A stretch of DNA of 51,476 nt from positions 1-51,476 of the forward strand of contig CAINHS010000052.1 in the NCBI GenBank assembly GCA_903848955.1, written 5' to 3'. The notes below the pieces were generated by a model. The model did no database searches and was not told the DNA's origin. It worked only from the letters and a program-made list of their open reading frames with translations. Numbering within the stretch: position 1 is the first letter of the stretch; the number at the start of each line of letters is the position of its first letter. This document shows positions 38,312 to 50,911 of the stretch, in pieces. The position numbers and the translations under genes were made by a program. This stretch comes from an uncultured beta proteobacterium (GTDB taxonomy: Bacteria > Pseudomonadota > Gammaproteobacteria > Burkholderiales > Rhodocyclaceae).

Positions 38312-39112
38312 GTGATTGATTTCGACATTGCCAAGGCATGGCACAAGATATTCGCTCTTCATGTCGAATTTGTCGTTGAAGGGATAGAAAAGACCAGTCT
38401 CGATCCGCATACCGTAGCTGATGACACGGTCTGTGATCTCGGCAACTGGATATTCGGTTCGGGCCGGCGCTACGCCAATTCGCCTGCTTACAACGACCTG
38501 GTCGAAACACACATACGCTTCCATTACGCCGCCAGTTCGATGCTCGTGCAACACCTCGCGGGCAACGCCGCAACTCAGCTGGCCTTGTTCCAGGCAACGT
38601 CGGCAGCGGTCCTTGCCTCAATCGATGCCCTGGCATCCAGTGCCGGCGCGCTTGCCGCGCCGGTCCGGGCGGACGTGCCGGCTGAACCGGTCTGGCAGGA
38701 CTCGATGCGCATCGGAATGAAATTGATCGATGAACAGCACAAGGAGTTGCTGGGCTGGATTGAAAAACTCAACGACCAGCCGGGTGCGTCAGTTACCTCG
38801 AAATCTTTTGTCCGGGCGATATCCGCCGTCAAGAGGCTGGAGCAGCTGCATTTCGAGACGGAAGAGACCTTCATGAAAAGAGCCGGGGTCCCTTTGGATC
38901 AGATGGCCGGGCACATCCGCGAGCACAGCAGGCTGCTCGATCTGCTGGTTGAAATCGTGACCGACGGCGATGACGGAATTCGCAAGACCGCCGCAGAGGC
39001 GCACCGCGCAATCAAGGACCAAGTAATCGGTCATATCGTCAGGTATGACCTGCCCTTGCGTTTTCTGGTGGCGGATTCAGGGAGCGCAGGGACCGACGCA
39101 CCTGCTAAATGA
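38312..39112 (+). CDS. CZB zinc-binding domain fused to bacteriohemerythrin
   Basis: 266 aa, GTG start with a strong GGAGGT 6 nt upstream. N-terminal part (about 1-80): a CZB domain with the 3-His/1-Cys zinc set His11, Cys41 (CDLGNWIFGSGRRY), His67 and His71; spacing matches DgcZ. Linker 110-125. C-terminal part (about 126-250): hemerythrin with all seven diiron ligands His143, His180, Glu184, His201, His205, His241 and Asp246. Hemerythrin binds O2 reversibly; CZB zinc sites respond to zinc or hypochlorous acid in known proteins. No transmembrane segment, so it is cytoplasmic. The output is unclear because no catalytic or methyl-accepting domain is present. Confidence 0.87.
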   Translation: MIDFDIAKAWHKIFALHVEFVVEGIEKTSLDPHTVADDTVCDLGNWIFGSGRRYANSPAYNDLVETHIRFHYAASSMLVQHLAGNAATQLALFQATSAAVLASIDALASSAGALAAPVRADVPAEPVWQDSMRIGMKLIDEQHKELLGWIEKLNDQPGASVTSKSFVRAISAVKRLEQLHFETEETFMKRAGVPLDQMAGHIREHSRLLDLLVEIVTDGDDGIRKTAAEAHRAIKDQVIGHIVRYDLPLRFLVADSGSAGTDAPAK

Positions 39113-39876: not shown

Positions 39877-42159
39877 TCATATCTCTGTTGTTCGCCCGGA
39901 TGCGGCACCGGCGCTGCGCCAGGCCACCAGTTCGTCGGCAGGCATCGGCAGCGCGATGCCGTAGCCCTGGCCGACCTCGCAGCCCATCTGCAGCAAGGCC
40001 TGGCAATGCGCCTCGGTGTCCACCCCTTCCGCCACGACGCTCATGTCAAACGCCCTGGCCAGCGCGATGATCCCCTGCACCACGGCGTGGTCGCCTTTGT
40101 CCTGCTGCATGTCGCGCACAAAGGATTGATCGATCTTCAGCACGTCCACATCGAGCTTGCTCAGGTAGGTGAGCGATGAGTAGCCGGTGCCGAAGTCGTC
40201 CAGGGCGAAGCTGACACCGAGCTCCTTGCACGCCTTGATGAGGCTGCCGATGCGGGCGATGTCTTCCAGCGCTGCGGTTTCCAGCACTTCGAGCTGCAGG
40301 CGGCTGAAGCAGTCCGGCGCAGGACAGCGCTTTTGGTGTTGCGCCAGCTTGGCGACGAAACCCGGCGATTCCAGGTGATAGGCCGAGATGTTGATGCTCA
40401 GCTCGATTTCGAAGCCGGCCTCGCGCCAGCGGCAGAGCTGGTCGATGGCGGTACTGACCACCCAGTCTCCGAGTTCTATTTCCAGCTCGGTGTTTTCCGT
40501 CACGCGCAGGAATTCCTCCGGCGGCAGCCGTCCGCGCTGCGGATGATTCCAGCGTATCAGTGCCTCGGCGCCGAGCAGGCGGCGGGTTCTGATTTCCACT
40601 TTGGGCTGGTAGTACAGCTCGAATTCACCGTGCCGCAGGCCGTGCCTGATCTGCTGCTGCAAGTCGTGGTGGGAGCGGGCGCGCTGATCGCTGGCCGGGT
40701 CGAAGAAGTGAAAGCGGTTTCTGCCCGATTGCTTGGCGACATACATCGCCTGGTCGGCGTGGCGCAGCAGGGTATCCGCATCCTGCTCGTCCTCCGGATA
40801 GAGGGCGACGCCGATGCTGGCGCTGATAGTGAGCACCGCGCCCTTGAGCGCAATCGGCTGGTTGATGCTCTGCAGCAGGCGATGCAGGCTGCCCGCGCAT
40901 TCTTCCGGCGCCTGCAGCCCGACCAGCAGGACGACGAATTCATCGCCACCGAGGCGCGCCACCGTATCGTCCTCGCGCACCGCATCCTTGATGCGCCGCG
41001 AGATCTCCACCAGCACCCTGTCGCCGGCGTCGTGGCCGAAGCTGTCATTGACCGGCTTGAAGCCGTCGAGGTCGATGTAACACACGGCCATCAAGCCTTT
41101 GTCACGCTTGGCGCGCGCCAGGGCCTGCGACAGGCGGTCGGCCAGCAGCACGCGGTTGGGAACGCCGGTCAGCGTGTCGTAGTGCGCCATGTGCTCCAGT
41201 GCCTTCTCGTGCTCGGTGCGCTCCGTCACGTCGGTGGCCAGGCCGATGTTGCCCTTGACGCTGCCATCCTTGTCGAGCAGCCTGAGCTTGGTGATTTCCA
41301 GCAGATGTTCGCGGCCGTCGGCGAACGGCAGCCGCTCCAGCGAAATATGGGGCGCATCCTGCTCCAGGCATTCCCGGTCCGATTTCAGGCAGCTCGCGGT
41401 GACGGCTTCCGGCATGAGATCGGCATAGCGGTCCGCGGCGAGGAATTGCGCTTCGGAAATGCCCGTGGCATCGCAAAAGTTCCGGTTGACGAACTGCACC
41501 TTGCCGCCGGTGTCGACCATCCAGATTCCCAGCGGCGCATTGTCCAGTATCGTCTGGAACAGCTTGCGTTCATCAAGCAGGCTTTGTACCCCGCTTTCGC
41601 GTTCGCGCCGCGACTGATCGTCCCTCAGCGTCTGGTAATTCCACAGGACGAAGAACAGCGCGCCCAGATACAGGCAGGTAGTGGCAATCTCGAGAGCGGA
41701 GAACCCGGTCCTGAAAGACGGCACCAGATGTGTCGCGACAATGGCGATGATGATGAACACCAGCCAGAAGCCGCCGACGCGTATTCCCTTGAGGAAAAAT
41801 GCCCCGGCCGAGAGCAGGAAGAACAATGACAGCCGGTTGGCCTGGTACGGCGCCAGCAGGTAGACGGCGTAAAACAGCAGGAACAGCAGCGCCAGCGCGA
41901 TCGAACCGATCAGCTCCACCCTTTCCCGGTGCCGCTTGAGGTAGTAAAGCAGGCTGAAGCCGACAGCCGAAAAAGCGAAGTCCATCGCAGCCAGAACGGG
42001 GCTGATCTGCCAGCGGTAGAGGCCGATGCCGCACGACAGCAGGGCCGCCAGCAGGAATATGCTGTTGAGGAACGCCACCTTGTACTTGAGGCGTTGCTCG
42101 CCCTCAGGCAAGGGCTGATCGGAGCAAGGCTGGCGCAGCGGGGGCTTGGTCATGGCCAT
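39877..42159 (-). CDS. Membrane-bound PAS-GGDEF-EAL c-di-GMP enzyme
   Basis: 760 aa. About five or six transmembrane helices at the N-terminus (about 28-172). A PAS domain follows (about 200-312: AVTASCLKSD, LEITKLRLLDKDG). The GGDEF domain has an intact RLGGDEF (402-408) with the canonical acidic residues. The EAL domain has EALIRWNHP (532-540), and DDFGTGYSSL further on, so both catalytic sites look intact. It can be a diguanylate cyclase, a phosphodiesterase, or both. The neighbouring CheA with an MshEN-type motif makes c-di-GMP a plausible local signal. Confidence 0.9.
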   Translation of the reverse strand: MAMTKPPLRQPCSDQPLPEGEQRLKYKVAFLNSIFLLAALLSCGIGLYRWQISPVLAAMDFAFSAVGFSLLYYLKRHRERVELIGSIALALLFLLFYAVYLLAPYQANRLSLFFLLSAGAFFLKGIRVGGFWLVFIIIAIVATHLVPSFRTGFSALEIATTCLYLGALFFVLWNYQTLRDDQSRRERESGVQSLLDERKLFQTILDNAPLGIWMVDTGGKVQFVNRNFCDATGISEAQFLAADRYADLMPEAVTASCLKSDRECLEQDAPHISLERLPFADGREHLLEITKLRLLDKDGSVKGNIGLATDVTERTEHEKALEHMAHYDTLTGVPNRVLLADRLSQALARAKRDKGLMAVCYIDLDGFKPVNDSFGHDAGDRVLVEISRRIKDAVREDDTVARLGGDEFVVLLVGLQAPEECAGSLHRLLQSINQPIALKGAVLTISASIGVALYPEDEQDADTLLRHADQAMYVAKQSGRNRFHFFDPASDQRARSHHDLQQQIRHGLRHGEFELYYQPKVEIRTRRLLGAEALIRWNHPQRGRLPPEEFLRVTENTELEIELGDWVVSTAIDQLCRWREAGFEIELSINISAYHLESPGFVAKLAQHQKRCPAPDCFSRLQLEVLETAALEDIARIGSLIKACKELGVSFALDDFGTGYSSLTYLSKLDVDVLKIDQSFVRDMQQDKGDHAVVQGIIALARAFDMSVVAEGVDTEAHCQALLQMGCEVGQGYGIALPMPADELVAWRSAGAASGRTTEI

Positions 42160-44902: not shown

Positions 44903-45007
44903 TCTTGCCCTTCTGCGATTATCTCTTCCGACAGGCGCAAGCATGCTTGGGCCATGTTCCGGTATGGGTACCGGGGAGTTTGCGACTTCAAACAGGGGAA
45001 AAGCACT

Positions 45008-45373
45008 ATGAGCACAATCATGCTGGTGGACGATTCGGCGACGATACTTTTGTCCATCTCGAACATTCTGACCAAGGCGGGCTACGCCGTCGAAAAGGCC
45101 AGCAATGCGGCCGAAGGACTGACCAAGTTCAAGGGCGGGGTGAAGGTGGATCTGCTGATCACCGACCTCAACATGCCCGGCATGAACGGCATCGAGTTCA
45201 TCAAGGCGGTGCGCACCCTGCCGAACTACAAGTTCATGCCCATTCTGTTTCTCACCACCGAGTCGCAGCAATCCAAGCGCCTTGAAGCCAAGGCTGCCGG
45301 CGCCTCCGGCTGGCTGGTGAAGCCGGCCACCGCCGACGAATTGCTCGGCACCATCAAGCTCGTGATCCGCTGA
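45008..45373 (+). CDS. CheY-like single-domain response regulator
   Basis: 121 aa from the ATG at 45008 (AGGGG upstream). Receiver only: Asp8/Asp9 (LVDDS), phospho-acceptor Asp53 ([11 protein letters not shown]), Thr in FLTTES and Lys in LVKPAT are all in place. No output domain, so it probably acts like CheY on a motor or an effector. It is the first gene of the chemosensory operon; its stop overlaps the next start (TGATG). Confidence 0.92.
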
Positions 45374-46641
45374 TGGACTTCCTGCTGCTGCTGCGACGCA
45401 ATCTGCTGGTGTCGGCTCTGGTCGGGCTGGGCGCGGCGGTTTCCGTCTATTTCTGCAATGAGTGGTGGCACGAGACGGTACTGCCTGCCATGGGGGTTTC
45501 GTCTGCCCTGGGCGATGCTCTGGGCGTCCTGCTGATCGTGGTGATCACTTTCATCGGCCAGCGCATGATGTCGGTGCTTTTTTACCGCGACTGGCTGTTC
45601 GGCATGGGCAAGGTGCAGGCCGACACCATCGGCCGCGCCGATTCCTGCGTCACCGCCGCCGAACAGGTTGCCGGCGAATTGCGCGCCGTCAAGGGCTACA
45701 ACGACGTGGTGCGCGGCCAGTTGAACGGCGTCGTCAGCGAAACCGAAAAAGCCGCATTCGACATCGCCAGCCGGCTGCAGAGCATCGACGAGATCATCTC
45801 GCGGCTCGCCGCCTACGCCGAGTCCACCACCACCGAGTCGAACAAGCTGCTGTCGGCCTCGGAAGACCGCATCACGCAAAACCGCAGCTTGATCACCACG
45901 CTGGAAAGCTACATCCGCCAGCGCGTCGCCACGGGGCAGGAAGACCGGGAGCGCATCACCCATGTCGTAGCCGATGCGCGCTCGTTGGGCACCCTGGTGG
46001 AACTGATCAAGCACATCTCCGGACAGACCAACCTGCTGGCGCTGAATGCGGCGATCGAAGCCGCCCGCGCCGGCGAGGCCGGCCGCGGTTTTGCCGTGGT
46101 AGCCGACGAAGTCCGGAAGCTCTCGGGCGAGACCGACAAGGCGGTCGGCGAGATCAGCAAGGGCATCAAGACCGTCGCCGACTCCATCGAAGCGCAATTT
46201 GCCGAAAAGCTTTCCAAGGACAGCGCCAAGTCCGAGAGTGCGGCGCTGGAAAGCTTCGCTGCCCAGCTCGACGACCTCGGCAAGAGCTACCGCGAAGTCA
46301 CCGAACACGAGGCAGCGGTGGTGGCCACCATCACCGACAGCAGCCAGCAACTGGCCGGCATGTTCATGTCGGCGCTGGCCAGCGTGCAGTTCCAGGACGT
46401 GACAAGACAGCAGATCGAGCAGGTGATCGACGCGCTGAACCGGCTCGACGGCCATTCGGCCATGCTGGCCAGCCGGCTGGGTCAGATGGAAGACCCCCAC
46501 TTTGTTCTGCAGCCGCTGTCGGAACACCTGGCGCAGATCTACAGCAGCTACGTCATGGAGTCGCAGCGCGACACGCATCACAGCGCGACAAAAAGCGGCG
46601 CTGCGGCGGCCAAGGCCGGACCGAAAATCGAATTGTTCTAG
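45373..46641 (+). CDS. MCP-like signalling protein with CheZ-like C-terminal signature
   Basis: 422 aa. Two N-terminal transmembrane helices (about 10-27 and 46-66) with almost no periplasmic loop, so it may sense the membrane or the cytoplasm. The MCP hairpin tip [20 protein letters not shown] (216-235) is intact for CheA/CheW contact. The C-terminus has [14 protein letters not shown] (338-351), where Asp342 and Gln346 have the spacing of the CheZ active pair (Asp143/Gln147). It ends in IELF. It is coupled to the CheY-like gene by TGATG. It could be a receptor, a phosphatase for that CheY, or both. Confidence 0.82.
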
Positions 46642-46655
46642 GCGGGAGACCCTGA

Positions 46656-46985
46656 ATGAAATTTTCCAGCAAAACCACGACCGACGGCGCAAAGCGCCTC
46701 ACCGTCAACGGCGATCTGACCATCTATCACGCGGCCGAGGTCAAGAAGCGGCTGATCGCCGACATTCGCGCCGGCGGCGTGCTCGAACTCGATCTTTCGC
46801 AGGTGGGCGAAATGGACACTGCCGGCTTGCAGTTGCTGGCGCTGGCCAAGCGCGAAAGTCAGCACCTTGATCACGCCCTGCGCATCGTCGGCCACAGTCC
46901 GGCGGTACGCGAAGTCATCGAATTTTTCAACATGGTGGCCTTCTTTGGCGACCCGCTGGTGATTCCCGCCAGCGAGAACTCTTGA
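46656..46985 (+). CDS. STAS domain protein
   Basis: 109 aa. The fold is LTVNGDLTIYHAAEVKKRL, then LELDLSQVGEMDTAGLQLLALA, where DTAGL takes the place of the DSSG/DTAG phospho-acceptor loop (Thr). Small STAS proteins of this kind are coded between MCP and CheA genes in several betaproteobacterial chemosensory clusters; the role there is unclear, perhaps coupling to a partner kinase or phosphatase. It starts 14 nt after the previous stop and ends 13 nt before cheA. Confidence 0.85.
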   Translation: MKFSSKTTTDGAKRLTVNGDLTIYHAAEVKKRLIADIRAGGVLELDLSQVGEMDTAGLQLLALAKRESQHLDHALRIVGHSPAVREVIEFFNMVAFFGDPLVIPASENS

Positions 46986-46998
46986 GCCGGAGCCGATA

Positions 46999-49212
46999 AT
47001 GGACGAAATACTCAGCGTTTTTTCGGTCGAGGCCAGGGAGCAGCTGGAAGCCATGGAAGCCGGGCTGATGCAGCTCGAGCAGGGCGACCGCGATCCTGAA
47101 ACCATCAATGCCGTATTCCGCGCCGCGCACACCATCAAGGGCGGCGCCGGGGTGGTCGAAATCCACTCCGTGGAGAAATTCACCCACGTCCTCGAGAACG
47201 TCCTCGACCGCCTGCGCAATGGCGAGATCGAAGTCAGCGGCGACATGATCTCGGCCCTGCTCCTGGGCTGCGACCACATCGGCGCGCTGCTCGGCGTGGT
47301 GCAGGCAGGGGGAATGGAACCGGACGAGGAACTCAAGCAGGCCGGCGAGGTGATCACCGAGGCCTTGCGTCCCTTCCTCGGCGGCAAGGCACAAGCCGGA
47401 GTCGCTACCAAGCCGGCAGCGGACGACCTGGCGGAGACGGACAGCGGCAATGTTCAGCGCAACGACCGCGACAGCCCCACCAACGACTGCTGGCACATCT
47501 CCATCCGCTTCGGCGAGAGCGTGCTGAAGAACGGCATGGACCCGCTGGCCTTCCTGCGCTACCTGCTCAACCTCGGCGAAATCGCCCACATCACCACCCT
47601 CACCGACGCCCTGCCGGATACCGACGAGATGGATCCGGAGCTGTGTTATCTGGGCTTCGAGATCAACTTCCGCAGCCATGCCACCAAGGACGCCATCGAG
47701 AAAGTCTTCGACTTCTGCCGTGACGACTGCGACCTGCACATCCTGCCGCCCAACAGCAAGGTTGCCGACTTCCTGCAACTGATCGACGCCCTGCCCGAAG
47801 AGACCATGCGTCTGGGCGAGATCCTGATCAAGAGCGGCGCGCTGACCAAGGAAGAACTCGACGACGGCCTGCGCCGGCAATCCGGCGCAACGGCCGGAAC
47901 CGACGACGCGGCGTCGGCGCCGCAACTGGGCGACATCCTGATTCAGCAGAGCAACGTCCAGCCCGAACTGGTCGAAGCCGCGGCCGCCAAGCAGAAAGTC
48001 GTTTCCGAAAAGAAGGCCGCCGAATCGAGCCTGATCCGGGTGCACGCCGACAAGCTCGACCAGTTGATCGACCTGGTCGGCGAACTGGTCATCGCCGGCG
48101 CCTCGGCCAATCTGCTGGCGCGGAAGAGCGGCGAAGGCACGCTGGTGGAGGCCACCTCGGTCTTGACCCGTCTGGTCGAGAGCATCCGCGATTCCGCCCT
48201 GGCCTTGCGCATGGTGCAGATCGGCGAGACCTTCAACCGCTTCCACCGCGTCGCCCGCGATGTGTCAAAGGAACTGGGCAAGGACATCGAACTGGTCATC
48301 ACCGGCGCCGAGACCGAACTCGACAAGTCGGTGGTGGAAAAGATCGGTGACCCGCTGATGCACCTGGTGCGGAACGCCATGGACCACGGCATCGAATCGG
48401 CCGCAGTGCGCGCCGCCAATGGCAAGCCGGTCAAGGGCCGGGTCGAGTTGAACGCCTACCATGACTCCGGCAGCATCGTCATCGAAGTGGTGGATGACGG
48501 CGGCGGCCTCAACAAGGACCGGATCCAGGCCAAAGCGGTTGAAAAGGGCTTGATCCAGCCCGGCGACAGCTTGTCCGACCAGGAAGTGGTCAATCTCATC
48601 TTCGAAGCCGGCTTCTCCACCGTGGAAAAGGTCACCAACCTGTCCGGGCGCGGCGTCGGCATGGATGTGGTGCGGAAGAACATCACGGCGCTGCGCGGCA
48701 GCGTCGACGTCAAGACCGAACTCGGCGCCGGCTCGCGCTTCACCATCCGCCTGCCGCTGACCCTGGCCATCATCGACGGTTTCCTCACCGGCGTCGGCAA
48801 GTCCTCCTACGTGATTCCGCTGGACATGGTGGTCGAATGCATCGAGCTGGCCAACACCAGCGCCGACCGCGACTACATCAACCTGCGCGGCCAGGTGCTG
48901 CCCTATGTGCGGCTCAGGGAACTGTTCGAAGTTCCCGGCACGCAGCCGCCGCGGGAAAACGTCGTCGTCGTTCAGTACGCCGGGCAGAAGGCCGGCATCG
49001 TCGTCGATCAGCTGCTGGGCGAATTCCAGACCGTAATCAAACCCCTGGGCACGCTGTTCCGCAATATGCGCGGCATCGGCGGCTCGACCATTCTCGGCAG
49101 CGGCGAAGTCGCCCTGATCCTCGATGTACAGGCGCTGGTGAGCCGCAGCGCACGCAGCGAAGAGCAGCAGGCGCAGGGCGCCACCGGCACGCGCCGGCTC
49201 GAGGCGCATTGA
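46999..49212 (+). CDS. cheA: Chemotaxis histidine kinase CheA with MshEN-like tandem motifs
   Basis: 737 aa. The P1 Hpt domain has His44 ([10 protein letters not shown]). A P2-like region is at about 162-250. At 271-294 is a 24-residue motif matching the MshEN c-di-GMP-binding consensus at all fixed positions ([17 protein letters not shown] then DDGLRRQ); a weaker second copy is at 309-332. P3 dimerisation is at 340-420. P4 ATP-binding has [12 protein letters not shown] (455-466), VVDDGGG (497-503) and GRGVGMDVV (550-558). The P5 CheW-like domain is at about 590-720. The kinase looks complete. Confidence 0.93.
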
Positions 49213-49279
49213 TCATGCACTACCCCTTCCCGCATTTCTTTTGCAAGTTCCTTTCCTTTGGCATCACGGAGAACACACC

Positions 49280-50911
49280 ATGTTGAACAATCTCAAAATC
49301 GGCGTCCGTCTGGGGATAGGCTTTGCCGTCACCCTGGTCCTGCTGATCGCCATTGCCACCGCCAGCTACATGAAACTCGCGATGCTCAACGGCGAAATCA
49401 ATGACCTGGTCAAGGTCGATTTCCCCAAGACAGTGCAGGCCAACGACGTGATCGACGCGATCAACGTCATCGCCCGCCGCCTGCGCAACGCCTACATCTT
49501 CTCCGGCGCCGACTCGCAAAAGGAAATCGATGCGATTCCCGAGCAGCGCAAAGTCATCTCCGACCGTCTGGAGAAGTTGGAAAAGAGCATCACCAGCGAC
49601 AAGGGCAAGGAAATCCTGAAGAAGGTGCAGACCGCGCGCGCCGCCTATGTCACCGACCAGGACAAGTTCCTCGAGTTGCTCAAGGCCGGCAAGCGCGATG
49701 ACATGGTTGCCCTGCTGCAGGGCAGCTTGCGCAAGAGCCAGACCGAGTACATGGGCTCGATCAACACCCTGGTCGACTTCCAGACCGAGCTGATGGAAAA
49801 ATCCGGCAAGGAGGCCGACGAAGCGGCAACGGCGGCGGAACGCCTGGTGCTGATCCTCTCCGTCGTGGCGGTGTTGCTGACGATCGCCTTCGCCTTCCTC
49901 ATCACGCGCAGCATCACCAAGCCGGTAGGCGAAGCCCTGGCGGTGACCCAGCGCCTGGCCGAGGGTGACCTGACGGTGAGGATAGACGATGTCAGCAAGG
50001 ACGAAATCGGCCAGATGCTGGGCGCGCAGCAGGCCCTGATCGCCAAGCTGAACCAGATCATCGGCGAGGTCATCGGTGCTGCCGACGCCCTGTCCAACGC
50101 CGCCGGTCAGGTCTCGGCCACGGCGCAGTCTCTGTCGCAGTCGTCCTCCGAGCAAGCCGCCTCGGTCGAAGAGACAACAGCCTCCATCGAACAGATGACG
50201 GCCTCCATCACCCAGAACACCGAGACCGCCAAGGTCACCGACAACATGGCCACCAAGTCTTCGGTGGAAGCCACCCAGGGCGGCACGGCGGTGAAGGACA
50301 CGGTAGAGGCCATGAAGTCCATCGCCGGCAAGATCGGCATCATCGACGACATCGCTTACCAGACCAATCTGCTGGCGCTCAATGCGGCGATCGAGGCGGC
50401 CCGCGCCGGCGAGCACGGCAAGGGCTTCGCGGTGGTCGCCGCCGAAGTCCGCAAGCTGGCCGAACGCAGCCAGGTTGCCGCGCAGGAGATCGGGCAACTC
50501 GCCGGTTCCTCCGTCAAGATGGCCGAACAGGCCGGCAAGCTGCTCGACGAGATGGTGCCTTCCATCAAGAAGACTTCCGACCTCGTCCAGGAGATCGCCG
50601 CCGCGAGCCAGGAACAATCTGCCGGCGTCGGCCAGATCAACGGTGCCATGGGCCAGCTCAACAAGGCCACGCAGCAGAACGCTTCGGCTTCCGAGGAACT
50701 CGCCGCCACTTCCGAGGAAATGGGCGGTCAGGCCGCGCAACTGCAGGAGCTCATGGAGTTCTTCAAGATCGAGGAGCAGGGCAGGCCCGGCGCCGGCGCA
50801 GCAGCGAGCCGCGCCCGTCCGGCCGCTGCGGCGGCCCCCAAGGCGGCCAAGGCCCGCGTTTCACGTCCGGCGGCGGTGGCCGCCGCCGAAGGCGATTTCG
50901 AACGCTTCTGA
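49280..50911 (+). CDS. Methyl-accepting chemotaxis protein
   Basis: 543 aa from the ATG at 49280, with GGAG 8 nt before. TM1 (about 9-31), a four-helix-bundle type ligand domain (about 32-190), TM2 (about 191-212), HAMP (about 213-265), and a signalling hairpin with [20 protein letters not shown] (362-381). The C-terminus is a low-complexity Ala/Pro/Arg tail (515-543) ending GDFERF, unlike the NWETF pentapeptide that binds CheR/CheB. Ligand unknown. It lies between cheA and cheW. Confidence 0.92.

Follow-up and report, generated by a model that had tools for sequence, protein, structure and literature searches.

Does a CheA kinase sense c-di-GMP through a module of its own? The question is raised by a CheA-type histidine kinase of 737 amino acids encoded at 46,999-49,212 on the plus strand of the window (the whole 51,476-nucleotide stretch of DNA analysed here, from an uncultured beta proteobacterium), which had been predicted to carry one complete c-di-GMP-binding motif of the MshEN type and a second, degenerate copy. 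MshEN has been connected with CheA before: Wang et al., 2016 named CheA once in their main text, among the partners with which MshEN associates, without a test (PMC5013675). No report of c-di-GMP binding to a CheA was found among the titles and abstract beginnings searched, a scope that left subscription papers, preprints and supplementary tables mostly outside, and the available parts of PMC10212136, PMC10333796, PMC10519070, PMC12564702, PMC12943098 and PMC5812497 do not describe an MshEN-bearing CheA. In the papers covered, c-di-GMP is linked to chemotaxis by way of a PilZ chemoreceptor (PMC6454048), or the influence has the opposite direction and CheA recruits a phosphodiesterase and tunes it (PMC10212136).

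The CheA protein and its neighborhood

The domains that define a CheA are all present above their Pfam cut-offs and, like the gene, read on the plus strand: the P1 Hpt domain (residues 3-93, 47,005-47,277; PF01627, 60 bits), the P3 dimerisation domain (residues 343-401, 48,025-48,201; PF02895, H-kinase_dim, 41 bits; predicted helices 350-377 and 380-409), the P4 ATPase domain (residues 451-588, 48,349-48,762; PF02518, HATPase_c) and the P5 CheW-like domain (residues 595-716, 48,781-49,146; PF01584, CheW). Between P1 and P3 lies a P2-like domain, at about residues 165-249 (47,491-47,745), which has no Pfam match and which an AlphaFold2 model of residues 150-410 predicts as beta-alpha-beta-beta-alpha-beta; most of the Foldseek rows shown for it have ferredoxin-like folds, and their TM-scores are low. 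P2 of CheA generally docks response regulators, while P3 dimerises and hosts helices next to P4.

The gene has a chemotaxis neighborhood: a response regulator, two MCP-type proteins and, downstream, CheW. Upstream on the same strand are a single-domain response regulator (44,954-45,373; PF00072) and an MCP-like signalling protein (45,373-46,641; PF00015), and directly upstream of cheA a STAS-domain protein (46,656-46,985; PF13466/PF01740); a methyl-accepting chemotaxis protein follows, also on the plus strand, at 49,241-50,911 (PF00015, PF12729, PF00672). Similar genes occur in 75 (regulator), 63 (MCP-like protein), 76 (STAS) and 69 (downstream chemoreceptor) of 80 related loci, counted with tblastn (E<=1e-5) anywhere in the loci with their 3-kb flanks, some of them shortened by contig ends, and regardless of order and distance; a CheW-like neighbor was seen in 12 of the 80, lying mostly beyond the flanks. 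Because STAS, regulator and MCP neighbors recur in this way, the CheA with the module belongs to a chemotaxis gene set that is conserved. Elsewhere in the window (38,312-39,112), one protein joins a chemoreceptor zinc-binding (CZB) domain to a hemerythrin domain.

The PAS-GGDEF-EAL gene to which the original prediction drew attention is real, the domain search placing it on the minus strand at 39,877-42,159, 4.8 kb from the start of cheA; it is weak evidence and is given as context only, since there are 21 GGDEF matches in the genome, and it has been set aside also because the 3-kb flanks of the related loci cannot reach it. Those 21 matches make it very likely that c-di-GMP is made by this organism.

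Two motifs ahead of P3

The two 24-residue copies occupy residues 271-294 (motif 1, 47,809-47,880) and 309-332 (motif 2, 47,923-47,994) on the plus strand, separated, as had been predicted, by 14 residues (295-308, 47,881-47,922) that are mostly loop in the model and vary among relatives. Motif 1 agrees with every position of the consensus used in the original prediction, and its ligand-contact positions are complete; it misses the consensus published in 2016 at one position, 11, where L, V or I is wanted and Ala281 is found. Motif 2 keeps Leu2, Gly3 and Gln24 and has the four losses that had been read from it -- Gln309 for Arg1, Ser318 for Gly10, Val325 for Leu17 and Ala329 for Leu21. The published two-motif consensus is thus departed from at position 11 of motif 1 and at positions 1, 10, 11, 17 and 21 of motif 2, while Gly3 and Gln24, the key polar contacts, are present in both.

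Across all six frames of the window, the strict consensus of the original prediction has a single match, and none of 20,000 shuffles of the CheA protein contains it; 0.00035 matches are expected per 1.2 million residues of CheA composition. A relaxed consensus finds both copies in CheA; at least one relaxed match occurred in 20 of 20,000 shuffles and two in none.

Relationship to MshEN

A profile built from 73 CheA modules was compared with the sequences of the PDB, and all 14 distinct matches at E<=10 were MshEN-family pilus ATPases (type IV pilus ATPases named PilF, PilB or MshE), the best with E 7.6e-12. Conversely, the MshE-related NCBIfam model NF053729 (c-di-GMP_motif) matches every one of the 73 modules (E<=0.01), the best at 9.4e-15, and in a genome search it detects both copies in the CheA of the window, at 22.7 and 12.9 bits. 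Its score there is 28.6 bits for the whole protein and 34.9 and 35.2 for fragments (35.2 for that of 94 residues), under its cut-off of 38. The NfrB model matches 58 of the 73 modules (best E 4.9e-5). DUF4388 (PF14332) also matches 15 of the 73 weakly (best E 0.00026), which hints at a shared motif.

The Pfam MshEN model, PF05157, has no match in the CheA of the window at E<=10, and none of the 73 modules matches it at E<=0.01. PF05157 does match at five places in this genome, and at three of them its match starts 1 to 13 bases after that of NF053729 ends, so PF05157 represents the neighboring C-terminal part, behind the 53-residue ligand-binding stretch. Its absence was accordingly dropped as a refutation of MshEN, being uninformative about the motifs themselves. 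Proteins that carry the ligand-binding half alone escape the Pfam model.

The resemblance could in principle be chance, or that of a generic helix-turn-helix repeat with no kinship to MshEN, and the empty Pfam search and Foldseek E-values that are not significant by themselves (see below) would fit such a reading; it is nevertheless very improbable, given the shuffles, the derivation of all 14 PDB matches from one family and the matching of NF053729 by every member. By profile and predicted fold, the CheA module can securely be regarded as homologous to the ligand-binding subdomain of MshEN. The profile search suggested by the original prediction has given a divided answer, with nothing from the Pfam model and a match, though one below the cut-off, from NF053729. 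The prediction was to be abandoned if profile match and fold both failed; a profile match and a like fold were found, the Pfam part alone being negative.

Predicted structure

An AlphaFold2 model of residues 253-346, made with 73 sequences, has a mean pLDDT of 79.8 and helices at 254-264, 272-279, 284-298, 310-316 and 322-344; the second and third of these cover motif 1 and the last two motif 2, and together they give the four-helix bundle of the MshEN N-terminal subdomain, as a prediction from AlphaFold2 and Foldseek. The top seven Foldseek matches in the PDB are all c-di-GMP-bound structures (six of PilF-GSPIIB, one of MshE), with probabilities of 0.97-1.00 and rmsd of 1.5-2.3 A over 58-66 columns, and the other 28 of the 35 matches have probabilities of 0.09 or below. 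The structures on which AlphaFold2 was trained are those of the PDB, MshE among them; for this reason, and because the E-values are poor (0.29 at best), the match is to be taken as recognition more than as independent proof.

In the model of residues 150-410, the four module helices recur between the P2-like domain and the helices of P3. The fourth reaches residue 343 there (322-343, as against 322-344 in the module model), so that an extension of about 12 residues, 333-344 (47,995-48,030, plus strand), runs beyond Gln332 toward P3. Among the 50 of 838 Foldseek matches listed for this longer model there is no MshEN structure; these are mainly small alpha-beta folds (PII-like, CutA, ribosomal S6) that fit the P2-like part.

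Conservation among related CheA proteins

For the P2-plus-module region, at least 559 relatives have been confirmed, with scan patterns that lie in the P2-like domain, outside the motifs; the 80 loci used here are the best 80 of the 559 and so lean toward close kin. They were joined by an order-level set (30 of 45 places, including the window's own). The window, the 80 loci and the 29 other order loci gave 110 sequences, reduced at a similarity of 0.85 to 89 non-redundant CheAs; the alignments covered 25 of the 29 other order loci (A1) and 72 (A2) and 65 (A3) of the 80 loci. Titled genomes among the 80 include Thauera, Azoarcus, Zoogloea, Accumulibacter, Gallionella and Duganella. The same two-motif arrangement is present in the 30 order-level CheAs and in the 80 loci, with some variability at position 1 of motif 1, and the caution in the original prediction that the motif might be widespread in CheA proteins was right, at the order level as well as in the scan of at least 559 relatives.

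All of the 89 CheAs have Gly3 and Gln24 in each of the two motifs. The other positions divide the two copies: Arg1 is found in 79 of the first motifs and 4 of the second, Gly10 in 88 and 19, and L, I, V or M at position 21 in 89 and 62; 70 of the first motifs and none of the second fit the strict consensus. In 11 of the 89, motif 2 has both Gly10 and Leu21, as GSPII-C does. Position 1 of motif 1 is R, K or L in 85/89. The 17 same-genus rows, the window's own included, have the same pattern, with all motif-1 contacts kept, Leu2, Gly3, Val12 and Gln24 of motif 2 in 17/17, Gly10 of motif 2 in none, and Gln (8) or Pro (9) in place of its Arg1. Motif 2 also has conserved residues of its own: Ala19 and Ala20 (each in 88/89) lie outside the set of ligand contacts reported for MshE. 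Position 23 (residue 331), just before the invariant Gln, is Lys or Arg in 87/89, and is Lys in the GSPII-C domain of PilF; this residue could be a charged contact with a ligand or partner, replacing the lost Arg.

Because Gly3 and Gln24 persist throughout, and because Pro1 and Val17 are also found in PilF GSPII-C, the second copy is best described from these alignments as a conserved second type that is not decaying in the lineage of the window, and the word degenerate, originally applied to it, has been given up. The window's version is one of the weaker ones, owing to the Ala at position 21, which it shares with others for a total of 27/89. Spacers range from 5 to 52 residues in the 89 CheAs, with a median of 13. 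The spacing of about 5 residues that had been thought necessary for MshEN is not needed; PilF GSPII-C has 7, so that the 14 of the window break no strict requirement.

A CheA on a plasmid of Pseudomonas sp. HR96, with the same gene order, has RLGDILTRCGALTPLELQSSLDMQ as its motif 1 (off the strict form, with Thr at position 7), a 12-residue spacer and PLGEILIEQRLVEPSVVQSALDKQ as its motif 2. Some CheA-like proteins from other families of this phylum, such as those of loci L224 and L225, have the motifs one residue apart and Pro-Leu-Gly in motif 2; a search with the motif pattern in loci L226-L239 gave nothing in 12 of 14. A phylum search with a 101-residue fragment found 24 of 398 genomes, the query being too insensitive, while the P2-plus-module profile found 199 of 398, a figure that mixes module-only, P2-only and full matches and from which the fraction of CheAs concerned cannot therefore be derived. 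Four other loci (L201, L202, L205 and L209) each have an open frame, about 680-780 aa long, in which three or four MshEN-like motifs occur, and may encode c-di-GMP receptors with several sites.

Possible binding of c-di-GMP

In the MshE complex, Arg1 stacks on guanine, the backbone of Gly3 and the following residue contacts its Hoogsteen edge, positions 17 and 21 supply the hydrophobic face together with Leu2 from the partner motif, and Gln24 keeps ribose and phosphate in place (PMC5013675). From the homology, family-wide conservation and predicted fold of the CheA module, we infer ligand binding, its affinity and kinase coupling with a probability of about one half: by this analysis the module would sense c-di-GMP at micromolar levels and be coupled to P3. 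Residues 271-332 or thereabouts would form a stand-alone four-helix bundle of the MshEN_N type between the P2-like domain and P3, most likely with a low micromolar affinity for c-di-GMP. If the contacts follow those of MshE, one guanine site would be complete (Arg271, the backbone of Gly273 and Glu274, Leu287, Leu291 and Leu310) and the other weaker (Leu272, the backbone of Gly311 and Asp312, Val325, and Ala329 replacing Leu), with Gln294 and Gln332 holding the sugar-phosphate ring. The ligand may lock helix pairs otherwise joined by a loop into one bundle and so fix the long fourth helix before P3. Since that helix runs about 12 residues past the motif, the geometry or freedom of P2 and P3 could be altered; a change of this kind would act on autophosphorylation or phosphotransfer, with a sign that is not predictable.

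Binding is favored by the retention of Gly3 and Gln24, which are lost in the reported non-binders XpsE (G11, G40 and Q61 among the lost residues; PMC5013675) and PilF GSPII-A (in motif I, H33 replaces Gln24; in motif II, A41 replaces Gly3 and R62 replaces Gln24; PMC12002112), and by the presence of Pro1 and Val17 in motif II of PilF GSPII-C, an assigned binder. The loss of Arg from motif 2 was dropped as an argument against binding, since PilF GSPII-B, with Lys and Leu replacing Arg, binds c-di-GMP at about 6 nM, and GSPII-C has Pro there (PMC11731258). Tight binding is disfavored by Gln309, Ser318 and Ala329 together with the score below the NCBIfam cut-off. Counted in favor of binding, the L58A change of V. 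cholerae MshE, which corresponds to Ala329, brings a loss of about 10-fold (PMC5013675). Against it, four changes coincide in motif 2 in the lineage of the window (Gln309, Ser318, Val325 and Ala329), and the effects of single changes need not add gently. The triple mutant L10A/L54A/L58A of MshE reportedly fails to bind in vitro, which also counts against binding here, although a melting assay still showed stabilisation by c-di-GMP (PMC5013675). Further points that weaken the case are the missing Pfam match, the weak Foldseek E-values, the lack of MshEN among the 50 of 838 matches listed for the longer model, and the failure of GSPII-A to bind even with its consensus motifs restored (PMC12002112).

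That same GSPII-A, folded and non-binding, is the precedent for a quite different role, of the sort suggested in print for that domain (PMC12002112), in which CheA would keep the MshEN_N fold without binding c-di-GMP, as a structural or docking element between P2 and P3 -- a spacer, an array contact or a partner-binding surface. The absence of Arg1 from motif 2 in 85 of 89 CheAs and of Gly10 in 70 would be understandable then, and the conserved Ala19, Ala20 and Lys/Arg23, outside the ligand contacts of MshE, are what would be expected of a protein contact face. Such a role has a substantial chance of being the true one, though a somewhat smaller one than c-di-GMP sensing, because Gly3 and Gln24, which the fold-keeping non-binders have lost, are invariant in both motifs, and because the Arg1 that stacks on guanine in MshE (PMC5013675) has been kept in 79 of 89 first motifs.

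The asymmetry itself, with the strict form in 70 of 89 first motifs and no second motif, could also mean a half-complete site put to another use: the binding of one guanine, as a mononucleotide or linear nucleotide, of a mixed cyclic dinucleotide, or of c-di-GMP held between the two motif-1 halves of a dimer. Points in favor are that the CheA dimer forms via P3, directly after the module, and that the motifs of MshEN can be closely superposed on each other (PMC5013675). Such a use is improbable all the same, the single-chain model resembling MshEN, where motif 1 pairs with motif 2 of its own chain, and MshEN having bound no GMP, GDP or GTP and cGAMP weakly (PMC5013675).

If c-di-GMP sensing by the module is the right reading, the nucleotide would act on the central kinase itself and, with no fewer than 559 confirmed relatives of the P2-plus-module region, in many bacteria at once. 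The wider proposal, that proteobacterial CheAs include a large and deeply conserved class of c-di-GMP receptors in which an asymmetric MshEN_N module before P3 sets kinase output directly, without a PilZ adaptor, is put forward tentatively and could fall either way. The module is small, 94 residues, which makes direct binding assays simple. The Pfam MshEN model leaves the ligand-binding half uncovered, and the CheA module has thus gone unannotated; a family-wide, asymmetric, Pfam-invisible form of MshEN in CheA seems not to have been described in the literature searched.

Comparison with known MshEN proteins

Among the closest known systems is the GSPII-C domain of Thermus thermophilus PilF (PDB 6f8l, residues 301-359), the best match of the CheA profile. 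Its motif II, PLGEILVELGLARPEDVEEALQKQ in the PDB sequence, is very near the CheA motif-2 consensus, starting with Pro, having Val17 and ending in Lys-Gln, and 11 of 24 residues in each motif are identical to those of the window CheA; unlike the latter it keeps Gly10 and Leu21 in motif II, has a spacer of 7 residues and a third motif, and belongs to a pilus ATPase. A Kd of about 0.32-0.46 uM has been assigned to it, and more than one pair of its three motifs could do the binding (PMC11731258). The MshEN domain of V. cholerae MshE (PDB 5htl) shares with the CheA module the predicted four-helix fold (rmsd 1.7 A over 65 columns) and the motif-1 contacts; in MshE both motifs are complete, 5 residues apart and followed by MshEN_C, whereas the CheA of the window has an altered motif 2, a spacer of 14 and no Pfam match to the C-terminal part. 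In E. coli NfrB the module is described as fully conserved and, unlike that of CheA, is the C-terminal domain of a membrane glycosyltransferase; as in CheA, however, it is an MshEN module carried by an enzyme that is not an ATPase, and it binds c-di-GMP with a Kd of 1.0 uM, its authors inferring allosteric activation of the enzyme (PMC8669469).
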